Shown here: piece by piece, positions 16,173-19,555 of the stretch
Numbering within the stretch: position 1 is the first letter of the stretch
Layout: every line of letters begins with the position of its first letter
Assembly: GCA_019637895.1 (NCBI GenBank)
Contig: JAHBUU010000009.1
Span: 1 to 36,535 of the forward strand
Direction of reading: 5' to 3'
DNA: 36,535 bases
Source: Pseudobdellovibrionaceae bacterium
GTDB lineage: Bacteria > Bdellovibrionota > Bdellovibrionia > Bdellovibrionales > Bdellovibrionaceae
Notes under the pieces: model-generated
Databases searched by the model: none
What the model was told of the DNA's origin: nothing
Seen by the model: the letters and a program-made list of their open reading frames with translations, nothing else
Position numbers and translations under genes: made by a program

Positions 16173-16361
16173 TTTCGTCGTTTCGCCTTTTTGGGGAAAA
16201 GCCACTCTTAGCGCAGGAAACACGCGAAATCATTCGCTGTTTGCAGAATCTCATTTTGATTCTCTAAAAGTTTCACACCGGTCTCAGGCTGAAACGAAAC
16301 CACATTCTCAAAAATCACATTTGATTTCGACCATTTAGCCCCATGCCAACAAAACTGGAAT

Positions 16362-16378
16362 TTGGCGCGGGCTTCGCT
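16362..16378 (+). promoter_or_regulatory. Candidate sigma-54 promoter
   Basis: TTGGCGCGGGCTTCGCT has the GG-N10-GC spacing of sigma-54 promoters with a good -24 box. It differs by one base from the candidate promoter at 30749-30765. The predicted transcription start near 16389 leaves a 38-nt leader to the ATG at 16427, the same length as at the other locus. It lies inside the longer open frame that starts at 16343, which argues against that start. Confidence 0.6.
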
Positions 16379-16426
16379 CTTTCATCCGTGCAGGGAACGA
16401 CTCCCTTGATGAATTGGAGGAAGAAA

Positions 16427-17749
16427 ATGAAAAACGTAAACCTGACCCAGACCCAGAAAAAGTGGGCCCTCACAGCAACTCTGCTGGCGGTCCTTGGCTT
16501 TAACCTCTCGGCTCCTTTGAAGTCGGGAATGCAAACTTTGGAACTCGCCTCCGAAGGTGAAACCAAAGTTCAAACCATCGTTTCAGCGAACGGTTCCACC
16601 GAAGTGGAAGTTCAGTTCGTCAAAAGCGGCGACAATAAAACGATCGCCCTCGTTCCTTATGAATTTGAAGGACGCTCTTGCGAGTCTCAAGACTGCATGG
16701 CGACTCAAATTCTGAACGTTCCATTTGAAAGCGAAGCTCGCGACCTTGAAAAGGCCCTGCGTGCAAAGTACGCAACGTCCGGAAATCCGATCCGTCCAGC
16801 CAAAGAATCTCCGGCCGACGAGGAATCCGAACAGGACGCGAAGCTCGAGAAAGATCAAGCGATCCTCGACCGCATTGCCACGACCTGCGATCGTAAAGAA
16901 GAAGGTCAGGCCAAAGCCTCTTGCTTGACGAAGGAATTCGTCAAAGCCCTGAAAGACAAGCGGAAGAAGATCGACAAAGATCTCGCTCTCGATTTCTTTA
17001 ACGACACCATCAAACCCGAGCTGGTTGCGGCTCTGACTTCCCAAGAGATCTCCTCGATCGCTCTGGGCGGATCCGTCTTCGGTGAAGCTTCGGTTCGCGG
17101 TGCGGAACTCCTGAGAAAGATCCAGGCCGAGATCCCTCGCGAATACAATGACATCCGCAAAGCCGCCAAAGACGTCGCCGTCCAAGTCGTGAACAAATAC
17201 TCGATGGATGCGAAGAACACGGCTGCCGAAGCGAAAAACAAGAGCGACCAAGCGAAACAATACGGTCAGCTTGCCGACCAAGCCATGCAACAAGCCAATC
17301 AAACTCAGGACTGGCAGCAAAAGATGGCTTTGCAACAACAAGCCAACCAGTACCGCAATCTTCAGAACCAGTTGACCGAGCAAGCGTTCAAGTTGAACAC
17401 CAACTCGAACAGCAGCATGAAGGCTCTCGAGACCTTCCTGGTCAACGGCTTGGGACAACAACAGTATCAAGGACTCCAAGAAGCCTATGCAGCTAAGTTG
17501 GTCGACCAAAACTTCGCCTCGCAACTCATGACGGACTATCAATCCGCCGCGGCCATCGCGATCGCGACTCCGGTCACAACCGACCTGAACATCCCAGGCA
17601 TCCTTGATCCAAACCAAACCCCAACAGTTCCAGGCCAAGGCCAAAAACTGCCAATGGGTAACGGAATGGGCACCATCGGAACCGGCGGAGCAAACAACAC
17701 CTTCATCGGTGTCCCACGCCCAGCCGACCAAGGCGTCCTCCGCCAATAA
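16427..17749 (+). CDS. Exported protein of unknown function, Gln-rich helical region
   Basis: 440 residues with no family recognised. The start is ATG 16427 with a textbook GGAGG 6-7 nt upstream. An N-terminal hydrophobic stretch (about 12-30) is a signal peptide or anchor. A region near residue 85 contains CESQDC, a possible disulfide. Residues about 120-250 are charged and helical. About 265-330 is a Gln/Ala/Asn-rich coiled-coil-like segment (repeats such as QAKQYGQLADQAMQQANQ). The tail is Pro/Gly-rich. The profile suggests a periplasmic or surface structural protein. It is monocistronic: a candidate sigma-54 promoter upstream and an intrinsic terminator 29 bp downstream. Confidence 0.75.
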   Translation: MKNVNLTQTQKKWALTATLLAVLGFNLSAPLKSGMQTLELASEGETKVQTIVSANGSTEVEVQFVKSGDNKTIALVPYEFEGRSCESQDCMATQILNVPFESEARDLEKALRAKYATSGNPIRPAKESPADEESEQDAKLEKDQAILDRIATTCDRKEEGQAKASCLTKEFVKALKDKRKKIDKDLALDFFNDTIKPELVAALTSQEISSIALGGSVFGEASVRGAELLRKIQAEIPREYNDIRKAAKDVAVQVVNKYSMDAKNTAAEAKNKSDQAKQYGQLADQAMQQANQTQDWQQKMALQQQANQYRNLQNQLTEQAFKLNTNSNSSMKALETFLVNGLGQQQYQGLQEAYAAKLVDQNFASQLMTDYQSAAAIAIATPVTTDLNIPGILDPNQTPTVPGQGQKLPMGNGMGTIGTGGANNTFIGVPRPADQGVLRQ

Positions 17750-17777
17750 TCAAAAAAAAGTCCCCAGTTTCTTCCTC

Positions 17778-17807
17778 CCGGAGCCAAGAAGGCTCCGGTC
17801 CTATTTT
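17778..17807 (+). terminator. Intrinsic terminator of the 16427-17749 gene
   Basis: Perfect 8-bp stem CCGGAGCC/GGCTCCGG with loop AAGAA, followed by TCCTATTTT. It begins 29 bp after the stop codon on the plus strand. Confidence 0.8.
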
Positions 17808-17831
17808 AAAAGCCTCTTCCCAAAAGCAATG

Positions 17832-18028
17832 TTTCTTCCCTCCCACTTCAGAAGCGTTTTTCGGGATGTGTCCGTTCCTGAGGACATCCGGGAAGCGTGA
17901 CGCGTTTTTCCTTTTGGGAGCGCCGACAGGCGATCCCAAAAGGAAAATCCCGGTCATAGCTCAAGGACGAGCGGGTCCTCAGGAACGGACACATCCCGAA
18001 AAACGCTTCTGAAGTGGGAGGGAAGAAA
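17832..18028. repeat. 197-bp element with perfect 54-bp inverted arms and nested hairpin
   Basis: Positions 17832-17885 and 17975-18028 are exact reverse complements over 54 bp. The 89-bp centre contains a second perfect 14-bp inverted repeat (17906-17919 with 17934-17947) enclosing a 4-bp stem CGCC/GGCG with loop GACA. The element lies between two convergent genes, between their two terminators, and codes for nothing apparent. No clear target-site duplication or transposase is seen. It could be a miniature inverted-repeat element, a palindromic intergenic repeat, or the template of a very stable hairpin RNA. An assembly artefact is a further possibility. Confidence 0.95.
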
Positions 18029-18059
18029 AAAAATACCCGGGGGCCTTGCGGCCCCCGGG
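18026..18059 (-). terminator. Intrinsic terminator of the DUF507-cpn10-porin operon
   Basis: On the minus strand a perfect 10-bp GC-only stem (18036-18045 paired with 18050-18059, loop of four) is followed by TATTTTTTTT. It lies 73 bp past the stop of the gene ending at 18132. Its T-run merges with the end of the right arm of the 17832-18028 inverted repeat. Confidence 0.9.
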
Positions 18060-18131
18060 CCCTGCTCACCACCAATCAAGGTGCGATCAAACTGTGTTCA
18101 AGCTGCCGTACAAGTTGCTGTCAAAATGCGA

Positions 18132-19535
18132 TCAAAAGGTGATGGCTGCTCTTGTTTCAAATCCGTAAGTAAATCCGTTCGTCAAATCCGAAGCGCCGTC
18201 TTTGAATGCTCCACCAGGGAACAACAAACCGACCCTGTTTTCCCATCGTACATTCTCGCGGGCTTGATAGTCCACCGAGATATCCCACTCCAGACCGAGG
18301 TCCTTTTTCGCATTCGCAGTCCCAGTGGAGTTCGCCATGAGTTGTGCGTAGATCAGAGTGTTCTTCACGGAAAGGCGAGGACTCCAGGCATAACGAAGTT
18401 GCGGAGCCAAGTAAGCGACGTTGCTGATTGTCTCGTCATCCAGGGAATCCGACAAAGTATGAGTGGAATCCTTCACAAGCTCATTCGTCCTGAAGAAGTC
18501 CCGCTGCCCCAACCGGTGGTTGAAGAGAAGCATGGCCACATCATAGTTACGATGGAAGAAAAAGCCTTCTTGCGAAGTCGTGCCCGAGTCGTCTCCGGAC
18601 GCCACACCCAGCTTCATCCCGCCTTCCCATTTCGACTGGGGACGAGGGAAGTCCATTTCAAGCGCCACACCGTAAGAGCTGTTCTCGATGTTTTCACCAG
18701 TCGCTGTGCGGATTCCATAAGAACCCTTCAGGAACTGGGCTTCCATTTTGAATTTGAAGCTTTCCCATGTCCGACCAAAGGTGAACCCTGTGGTGGTCAT
18801 CGAGTATCCGCCGGTCGCCGGGCCCACGCCACCGATCGCAGTGTCCGTGACATCGTTCGAACTCTCGGAACCTTTGCGACGAGCCATCATCGCGCCGATC
18901 ATGGATCCCGTGTCTTTGCTGTCGTACTGGATCTGAATGATCTCGTCTTGGGTCATCCCCGGATTTCCCGGTCCCCAATCCATGACATGAGTCCGCCCCA
19001 ACATCGGAGTGAAAGACAAATTTCCAACGATGAATTTATAAGCCACGAAATCCGAAGTCGTCAGCCAATGATCAAAAGGCCCGTTCCCCGCACTGTAGAG
19101 CATCCCCAAACCGAACTCGAACGGCGCGCGGCCGACCAGCAAGGAGCCATACTCTTGATTGATCGTCAGATAGAGCTGACTCACACGGAAAGGCGTGAAT
19201 GACTTCGACTGCCCCATGGTGTTGTTGGCGGAATCGTCGCCCGGATTGGGCTCATTGCCACCGAAGAGCATTCCGGTCTGAGAATCGACATAAGCAGGAT
19301 CGTTGTTTCCAAGGACGTCGAACTTCCCGATGATATTGATTCCGTCCGAAGCCACGATTTTCGGGCTCAGAGACAGATAGTGCAATCCATAGGACTTGCG
19401 TTCGGAGGGAGTCGCCAAAGAAGGACGATCCAGGTGAAGCCATTCGGCGCGATAGGTGCCGGTCCAATCGAGACTCATCGCCGAAGCGGCGCTTGAGAAG
19501 AGCAAAAGACCGAACATCATCAGTTTACGTGTCAT
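18132..19535 (-). CDS. Outer-membrane beta-barrel (porin-like) protein
   Basis: 467 residues. A signal peptide (about 1-19, ending ASAM) is followed by many short amphipathic strands and turns rich in Gly/Asn/Asp, with a terminal ...FETRAAITF ending in Phe, the BAM-recognition signature. The size suits a 14-18 strand barrel. It does not match a porin family I can name. I choose ATG 19535 (AAAGG about 7 nt upstream) over the TTG two codons earlier. It begins 20 bp after the cpn10-like gene, so it is probably the last gene of that operon, and ends before a strong terminator. Confidence 0.72.
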   Translation of the reverse strand: MTRKLMMFGLLLFSSAASAMSLDWTGTYRAEWLHLDRPSLATPSERKSYGLHYLSLSPKIVASDGINIIGKFDVLGNNDPAYVDSQTGMLFGGNEPNPGDDSANNTMGQSKSFTPFRVSQLYLTINQEYGSLLVGRAPFEFGLGMLYSAGNGPFDHWLTTSDFVAYKFIVGNLSFTPMLGRTHVMDWGPGNPGMTQDEIIQIQYDSKDTGSMIGAMMARRKGSESSNDVTDTAIGGVGPATGGYSMTTTGFTFGRTWESFKFKMEAQFLKGSYGIRTATGENIENSSYGVALEMDFPRPQSKWEGGMKLGVASGDDSGTTSQEGFFFHRNYDVAMLLFNHRLGQRDFFRTNELVKDSTHTLSDSLDDETISNVAYLAPQLRYAWSPRLSVKNTLIYAQLMANSTGTANAKKDLGLEWDISVDYQARENVRWENRVGLLFPGGAFKDGASDLTNGFTYGFETRAAITF

Positions 19536-19555
19536 GATCAAACCTTTCTCGGGGA

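Follow-up and report, generated by a model that had tools for sequence, protein, structure and literature searches.

A lineage-restricted family of dispersed branched hairpin elements in Bdellovibrionales, with stems apparently maintained by arm-to-arm copying and a candidate CsrA-type loop

MITE-like bacterial repeats such as the Correia/NEMIS, ERIC and RUP elements possess conserved terminal repeats that are often accompanied by target-site duplications. Integron attC sites combine variable stems with conserved unpaired bases, a terminal structure of free length and GTTRRRY/RYYYAAC boxes, and the TwoAYGGAY RNA motif is a structured RNA with two AYGGAY-type loops. TwoAYGGAY has been listed for human gut samples, gamma-Proteobacteria and Clostridiales (PMC2864571). 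REPs, which measure 20-40 bp, carry GTAG/CGTC tags and have conserved stems (PMC3733652, PMC2817692). At the RNA level, the high-affinity motif of CsrA/RsmE is an apical hexaloop of the form C-G closed ANGGAN (CANGGANG; PMC6849547, PMC4894983), and template switching during replication can create and maintain perfect hairpin stems (PMC8794818). Here we describe an intergenic element that has features in common with each of these systems and that we interpret as one copy of a lineage-restricted, dispersed family of branched hairpins found in Bdellovibrionales and thinly beyond. We give this explanation as a whole, including arm copying and a CsrA-type RNA role, a probability of roughly 0.5; that the branched hairpin elements form a genuine, lineage-restricted family which behaves as mobile and whose arms are copied at the DNA level is a reading of the sequences that we hold with high confidence.

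The element lies in a 36,535-nucleotide stretch of a Pseudobdellovibrionaceae genome (G000), and this whole stretch is referred to as the window. A repeat search of the window found the original prediction of perfect 54-bp arms, an 89-bp centre and a nested perfect 14-bp repeat to be exact: the outer arms, at 17832-17885 and 17975-18028 of the + strand, are 54 nt long, 100% complementary and 89 nt apart, and the nested pair spans 17901-17952 (24 nt, 88% complementary), its perfect part being the 14 bp at 17906-17919 and 17934-17947. No further exact inverted repeats of at least 14 bp with a spacer below 3 kb occur across the 36.5-kb window, which excludes chance as the source of the arms. The predicted placement between the terminators of two convergent genes was likewise borne out, since the upstream gene (16343-17749) is followed by an intrinsic terminator at 17778-17798 (+) and the downstream convergent gene (18132-19541) by one at 18060-18035 (-), both facing the element. 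A promoter scan of 17700-18140 detected no sigma-70-like promoter. A site without the element, which had been proposed as a check, exists in a relative of the same genus (G001), where the same two genes (proteins 39% and 65% identical) and both terminators are kept, one at L199:3031-3056 and the other near-identical in sequence, while the hairpin is absent and approximately 750 bp stand in its place. To the eye, L199:3060-3710, between these conserved terminators, reads like an HTH/RelE-type toxin-antitoxin pair, and the same intergenic gap thus appears to have taken two different inserts in the two genomes. Immediately past the stop codon that ends the porin-like gene, window positions 18076-18141 hold a run of ~11-base units that start with TTGA on the minus strand, and a similar run is found at the same place in G001 (L199:3899-3966) despite well-diverged proteins.

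Given this setting, the element might be taken for a bidirectional transcription terminator or a barrier at mRNA 3' ends. Copies do lie at gene 3' ends, in many cases in the gap between two convergent genes, and the RNA fold of the 197-nt element is extremely stable at -155 kcal/mol, with a nearly equal value for the opposite strand. However, a terminator would not need the conserved branched core described below, both flanking genes have ordinary terminators of their own that persist in the element-less G001, and neither strand has a T-tract after the long stem, which the terminator scan leaves uncalled, its only calls being the two flanking terminators. We rejected a terminator role and regard the explanation as highly improbable.

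When 261 bp around the element were compared by blastn with its own genome (2.97 Mb, 235 contigs), more than 20 further copies emerged, and more were found in relatives, in agreement with the suggestion of a new intergenic palindromic repeat family. Nearly all matches are confined to query positions 81-181, corresponding to window 17880-17980 (+), a unit that runs from GAGGAC to GTCCTC and is 88-98% identical to many copies. The conserved, dispersed unit is the centre, and the arms are not part of it: only the last six bases of the 5' arm (GAGGAC) and the first six of the 3' arm (GTCCTC) belong to the shared core, and the 54-bp arm, which had been taken as the element and suggested as the sequence to search for, is private to the window copy, since comparison with the arms of each of the other copies gave near-random similarity (z = -0.8 to 2.2). 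The 101-bp core at 17880-17980 is 100% identical to contig C226:7853-7953, and the arms of these two copies (L044, the window copy, and L041) are unrelated, as dissimilar as shuffled sequence (z = 0.2); in other pairs, where the cores are ~95% identical, the arms are related (z up to 9). An identical core inside unrelated arms indicates that the core can be swapped or relocated without the outer palindrome, either by insertion or by gene conversion restricted to the core.

A covariance model built from 14 copies of this genome (R1) finds 23 full copies in it and a second model adds L042:1800-1884 on contig 2, so that at least 24 full copies are present along with several more cut at contig ends; because matches end at contig ends and assembly breaks fall inside copies, this count is a lower bound. 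Every full copy inspected in this genome has long, near-perfect arms around the centre, with arm sequences that differ between copies. Since the same architecture stands at more than 20 other loci of the genome and in single-contig genomes of relatives, the concern that one arm is an assembly duplication falls away. The family resembles MITE-like repeats in being short, non-coding, intergenic and hairpin-forming, yet its arms are the least conserved part, whereas such repeats have conserved ends, and visual inspection of the flanks displayed, made without an exact empty site from a close strain, revealed no target-site duplication. The proposal of a non-autonomous MITE therefore fared poorly, and no transposon with ends matching the arms was found. 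Nor did any copy in this genome contain a gene inside its inner loop, as an autonomous version would, the inner loops reaching only ~100 nt.

The copies share one plan, in which a long P1 of free sequence is followed by an unpaired (A/C)T, P2, one A, P3, P4, P2', a short linker, P5, G(N)G and P1'. In the window copy, on the + strand, P1 consists of the two outer arms, P2 pairs CCGGGA at 17888-17893 with TCCCGG at 17948-17953, P3 is a mini-hairpin (GCG-TGA-CGC) at 17895-17903, P4 is the inner stem formed by the perfect 14-bp repeat at 17906-17919 and 17934-17947, and P5 is the hairpin GCTC-AAGGAC-GAGC at 17959-17972. Across the family, the P3 loop has the form (N)KGA(N) within C(NKGAN)G and reads UGA rather than GGA in the window genome, P4 is free in both sequence and loop length, and P5 is a 3-4 bp hairpin whose A(N)GGA(N) loop is always closed by C-G. 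Over 41 copies drawn from many genera, standard pairs occupy 94.9% of the pair cells and 34 of 40 pairs show double changes, with 414 double-change cells over the 41 sequences; none of 500 shuffles reached the observed values, and sliding the partner by one column lowers pairing to ~40%. P2 covaries across genera, its six pairs being paired in 99.2% of cells with double changes in five of them. P4 covaries between copies and so does the stem of P5, the closing C-G pair of which is found in 40 of the 40 sequences that have letters there. Pairing in P2, P4 and P5 is almost purely Watson-Crick. The P5 loop, C(A[N]GGA[N])G, is kept by 98 of the 102 copies, compared with 7% when that stretch is shuffled; the count of copies is biased upward in that the models contain the loop.

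Using a general covariance model built from 28 sequences (R2) and strict filters that make both genome counts lower bounds, we detected members in 27 of the 369 Bdellovibrionota genomes, representing 21 genera, with up to 23 copies per genome. Within the order Bdellovibrionales 24 of 141 genomes were positive, and four of the 27 positive genomes belong to one family outside the order (f26). Copy number differs sharply among relatives. A pattern scan of a genome collection matched MAGs labelled Bdellovibrionales, Pseudobdellovibrio and an unplaced Deltaproteobacterium; matches in Rhodoferax, Enterobacter and Atopobiaceae (3) were in unrelated taxa and were taken as chance. One locus of a genus that is apparently Bdellovibrio (g6) revealed a sister family (D) that shares the plan of the family described above (A), with the layout GACCTC-P2-P3 (UGGAU loop)-P4-P2'-P5 (AGGA loop)-GTGTC. 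The model of family D, R3, has matches in 22 of the 24 genomes available for this genus, although weak matches may include other relatives. Because R2 did not pick up family D, the P5 loop in that family is cleaner evidence for conservation of the motif than the count above. No Rfam family matched the window at its gathering score, and nothing credible was returned for the element at E<=5; in this the family differs from TwoAYGGAY, which, moreover, is not known as a long-arm dispersed repeat. No plasmid origin was matched by blastn, viral contigs gave no match to two core patterns, and a partial search of the Bdellovibrio literature turned up no account of such an element.

How the arms remain perfect while their sequences diverge can be read from the changes that separate copies. 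The first analysis of the sequence had raised gene-conversion-like maintenance, and the data support it: among copies of the window genome, 76 cells changed on both sides versus 3 on one side, with almost no G-U intermediates. In genus g6, two species that are 89% identical across one flank (G052 and G059) differ by a block, TCAG to GTAAACA, that is mirrored in both arms, and comparison of G051 with G048 and G058 reveals a mirrored 1-nt insertion that turns CCTAGGG/CCCTAGG into CCTTAGGG/CCCTAAGG. A mirrored block and a mirrored insertion are not easily built from separate compensatory steps and so fit a single template switch or hairpin-templated repair. Two copies of the window genome are altered further, P5 having been lost in L063 and P3 in L056, with the lost part replaced in each case by the mirror of the opposite strand, which we read as palindrome-perfecting events. 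Among the closest orthologues (G006, G040 and G045), one-sided changes outnumber mirrored ones, indicating that arm copying is recurrent and neither constant nor instantaneous. An inverted-repeat scan, which covered stretches of the genomes, adds that arms in G126 reach 104 bp without a mismatch and that some extend as far as the neighbouring gene's stop codon. From these comparisons we infer, with good support, that P1 and P4 are kept perfect by repeated DNA-level recopying of one arm from the other. Either a template switch while the DNA is replicated or the repair of mismatches in an extruded hairpin would place a change or an indel in both arms at once, and stems would drift without G-U intermediates. 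RNA hairpins known to be maintained by template switching (PMC8794818) likewise show multi-base compensatory changes in one event and perfect stems, but they belong to RNA genes and have short helices, whereas arms here reach 104 bp and carry mirrored indels.

With respect to genomic setting, 34 copies lie between convergent and 6 between divergent genes, and in tandem settings the core is sense to the neighbouring gene in 17 cases and antisense in 25, so that the elements prefer gene 3' ends and not a transcript strand. At the genus g6 locus, G060 is almost empty and G049 has a small ordinary hairpin, neither carrying the element; family A occupies the site in G059 and G052 and family D in most others, the arms of both differing between species, and G047 looks like a deletion remnant. 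At another intergenic site, shared by two genera, the cores of L062 (G000) and L073 (G062) stand in opposite orientation, which would reflect either repeated insertion or inversion between the arms. These observations could be accommodated by a selfish or neutral repeat that is tolerated only at gene 3' ends because insertions elsewhere are harmful, with arms that are a by-product of template switching and a core that is conserved through youth or ectopic gene conversion. The excess of convergent over divergent settings, the identical cores within unrelated arms, the palindromised copies L063 and L056 and the apparent remnant in G047 would all follow. Neutral decay, however, would not leave the P5 loop, its closing C-G pair and the covariation of P2 and P5 in place across genera and in the sister family when nearly all else has changed, and we consider this explanation quite unlikely.

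A stronger competitor, though still somewhat unlikely in our estimation, is a mobile element that acts at the DNA level, in which the folded strand, with P2, P3, P5 and the GGA/TGA loops, would be the site for a recombinase or HUH-type transposase, as attC and REP are, and would have no RNA function. Such an element would account for the sharp variation in copy number between relatives, the identical 101-bp core at unrelated sites within unrelated arms, the lack of a fixed orientation relative to genes, the insulation of the window copy by terminators and the almost purely Watson-Crick pairing of P2, P4 and P5. It is harder to reconcile with a loop that matches a known RNA-binding motif, with a one-strand asymmetry of mismatches that has no obvious DNA-level cause (see below) and with the lack of any autonomous version or target-site duplication among the copies seen. 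In addition, no mobilising gene was linked to the copies: no Y1 (RAYT) transposase gene was found at E <= 0.001 in the copy-rich genomes G000 and G126, and no copy lies within 1.5 kb to either side of the best reverse transcriptase and Y1 matches, so that a retron-like reverse transcriptase or a Y1 transposase as neighbour was rejected. The window genome has four reverse-transcriptase genes (on C132, C188, C46 and C227), none of them within 1.5 kb of a copy. Like the REP/BIME/REPIN elements associated with RAYT (PMC3733652, PMC2817692), the family consists of dispersed, non-autonomous extragenic palindromes in many copies; it differs from them in its ~200-bp nested hairpins, in having a conserved junction and non-conserved arms, and in the lack of Y1 in G000 and G126, and no GTAG/CGTC tag is found among the conserved core columns. 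With integron attC sites it shares variable stems, conserved unpaired bases and an end structure of free length, but no attC boxes or cassette arrays were seen and the outer arms are long and perfect. Integron-like arrays were considered for the clusters of G126 and G140 and rejected, since in the regions checked these are mixed-strand copies beside ordinary chromosomal genes.

We favour a role for the core as RNA. Were pairing at the DNA level all that counted, the core-sense strand should hold G-T and A-C mismatches in equal numbers, whereas isolated mismatches over all copies number 60 G-T versus 20 A-C (p = 8.6e-6, with relatedness of copies uncorrected). Family D at its one locus has 14 G-T versus 2 A-C, which are non-independent, and the asymmetry is absent from the window genome (7 versus 6). 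Taken over the whole family, the excess suggests an RNA of the core-sense strand, the window genome lending no support. At 17962-17969, P5 reads CAAGGACG and matches the CsrA/RsmE motif CANGGANG; csrA is present in 7 of 8 genomes examined, the exception being only 54% complete, and lies at G000:C90:13358-13513 (E 1.7e-25) in the window genome. RNA of the core from its sense strand (+ in the window) would present the P5 hexaloop, perhaps together with P3, to a CsrA/RsmA-type dimer, making the core a portable candidate CsrA site or decoy. The resemblance to CsrA/RsmE-binding hairpins comprises the C-G closed ANGGAN hexaloop of P5, a second GGA/UGA hairpin in the same molecule (P3) and the presence of csrA; known sites are in mRNA leaders or multi-hairpin sRNAs, whereas here they would be carried by a dispersed long-arm repeat, mostly at gene 3' ends and in either orientation. 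Against an RNA role stand the missing mismatch asymmetry and the UGA of P3 in the window genome, the facing terminators on both sides of the window copy, the lack of a promoter match and the tandem settings, in which antisense is as common as sense and which are a poor fit to a simple 3'-UTR role. The earlier idea of a long hairpin RNA made by read-through may hold for the family, but the window copy itself sits behind a terminator on each side. Weighing these points, RNA function through a CsrA-type protein is our best single guess, with moderate confidence. The bolder version, in which the elements would be transposable CsrA decoys, a mobile RNA module of a predatory lineage that takes a predicted docking site to the 3' ends of many genes while its stems evolve by arm-to-arm copying rather than compensatory mutation, is speculative and on balance unlikely.

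Were the overall reading right, this would be an undescribed structured element in the lineage that includes the model predator Bdellovibrio, as well as a natural system in which 'compensatory' stem evolution proceeds by mirrored copying, indels included. Such mirrored copying would affect how far covariation can be taken to prove that an RNA is functional. A CsrA site that is portable, if true, would mean that the target set of a global regulator could spread by transposition, which is testable in culturable Bdellovibrio.

Other structured sequences were seen in the same genomes. A second kind of nested long-arm hairpin, with exact arms of 19-50 bp and a junction GAGCGATGCGTATCCGAC ... GCCGAAGACGCTTTGCACCCG, occurs in G126 at L120:3880-4156, L124:10430-10660 and L139:9450-9722 and is unmatched by R1 and R2. 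A third long hairpin of G126, with 34-bp exact arms and a different core, was seen in one copy (L121:1870-2055). At the genus g6 locus, several species (L160, L171, L172 and L173) have an additional long hairpin downstream of the family D copy in the same gap, with a core near CCGTTCGCCGAGTTCCGCAGCAGC...GCGAGGACTGTCCGAAGGCGAA. Finally, a purine riboswitch aptamer (Rfam RF00167, 56 bits) lies near a copy at L064:2844-2941 in the Pseudobdellovibrio-like genome G073.
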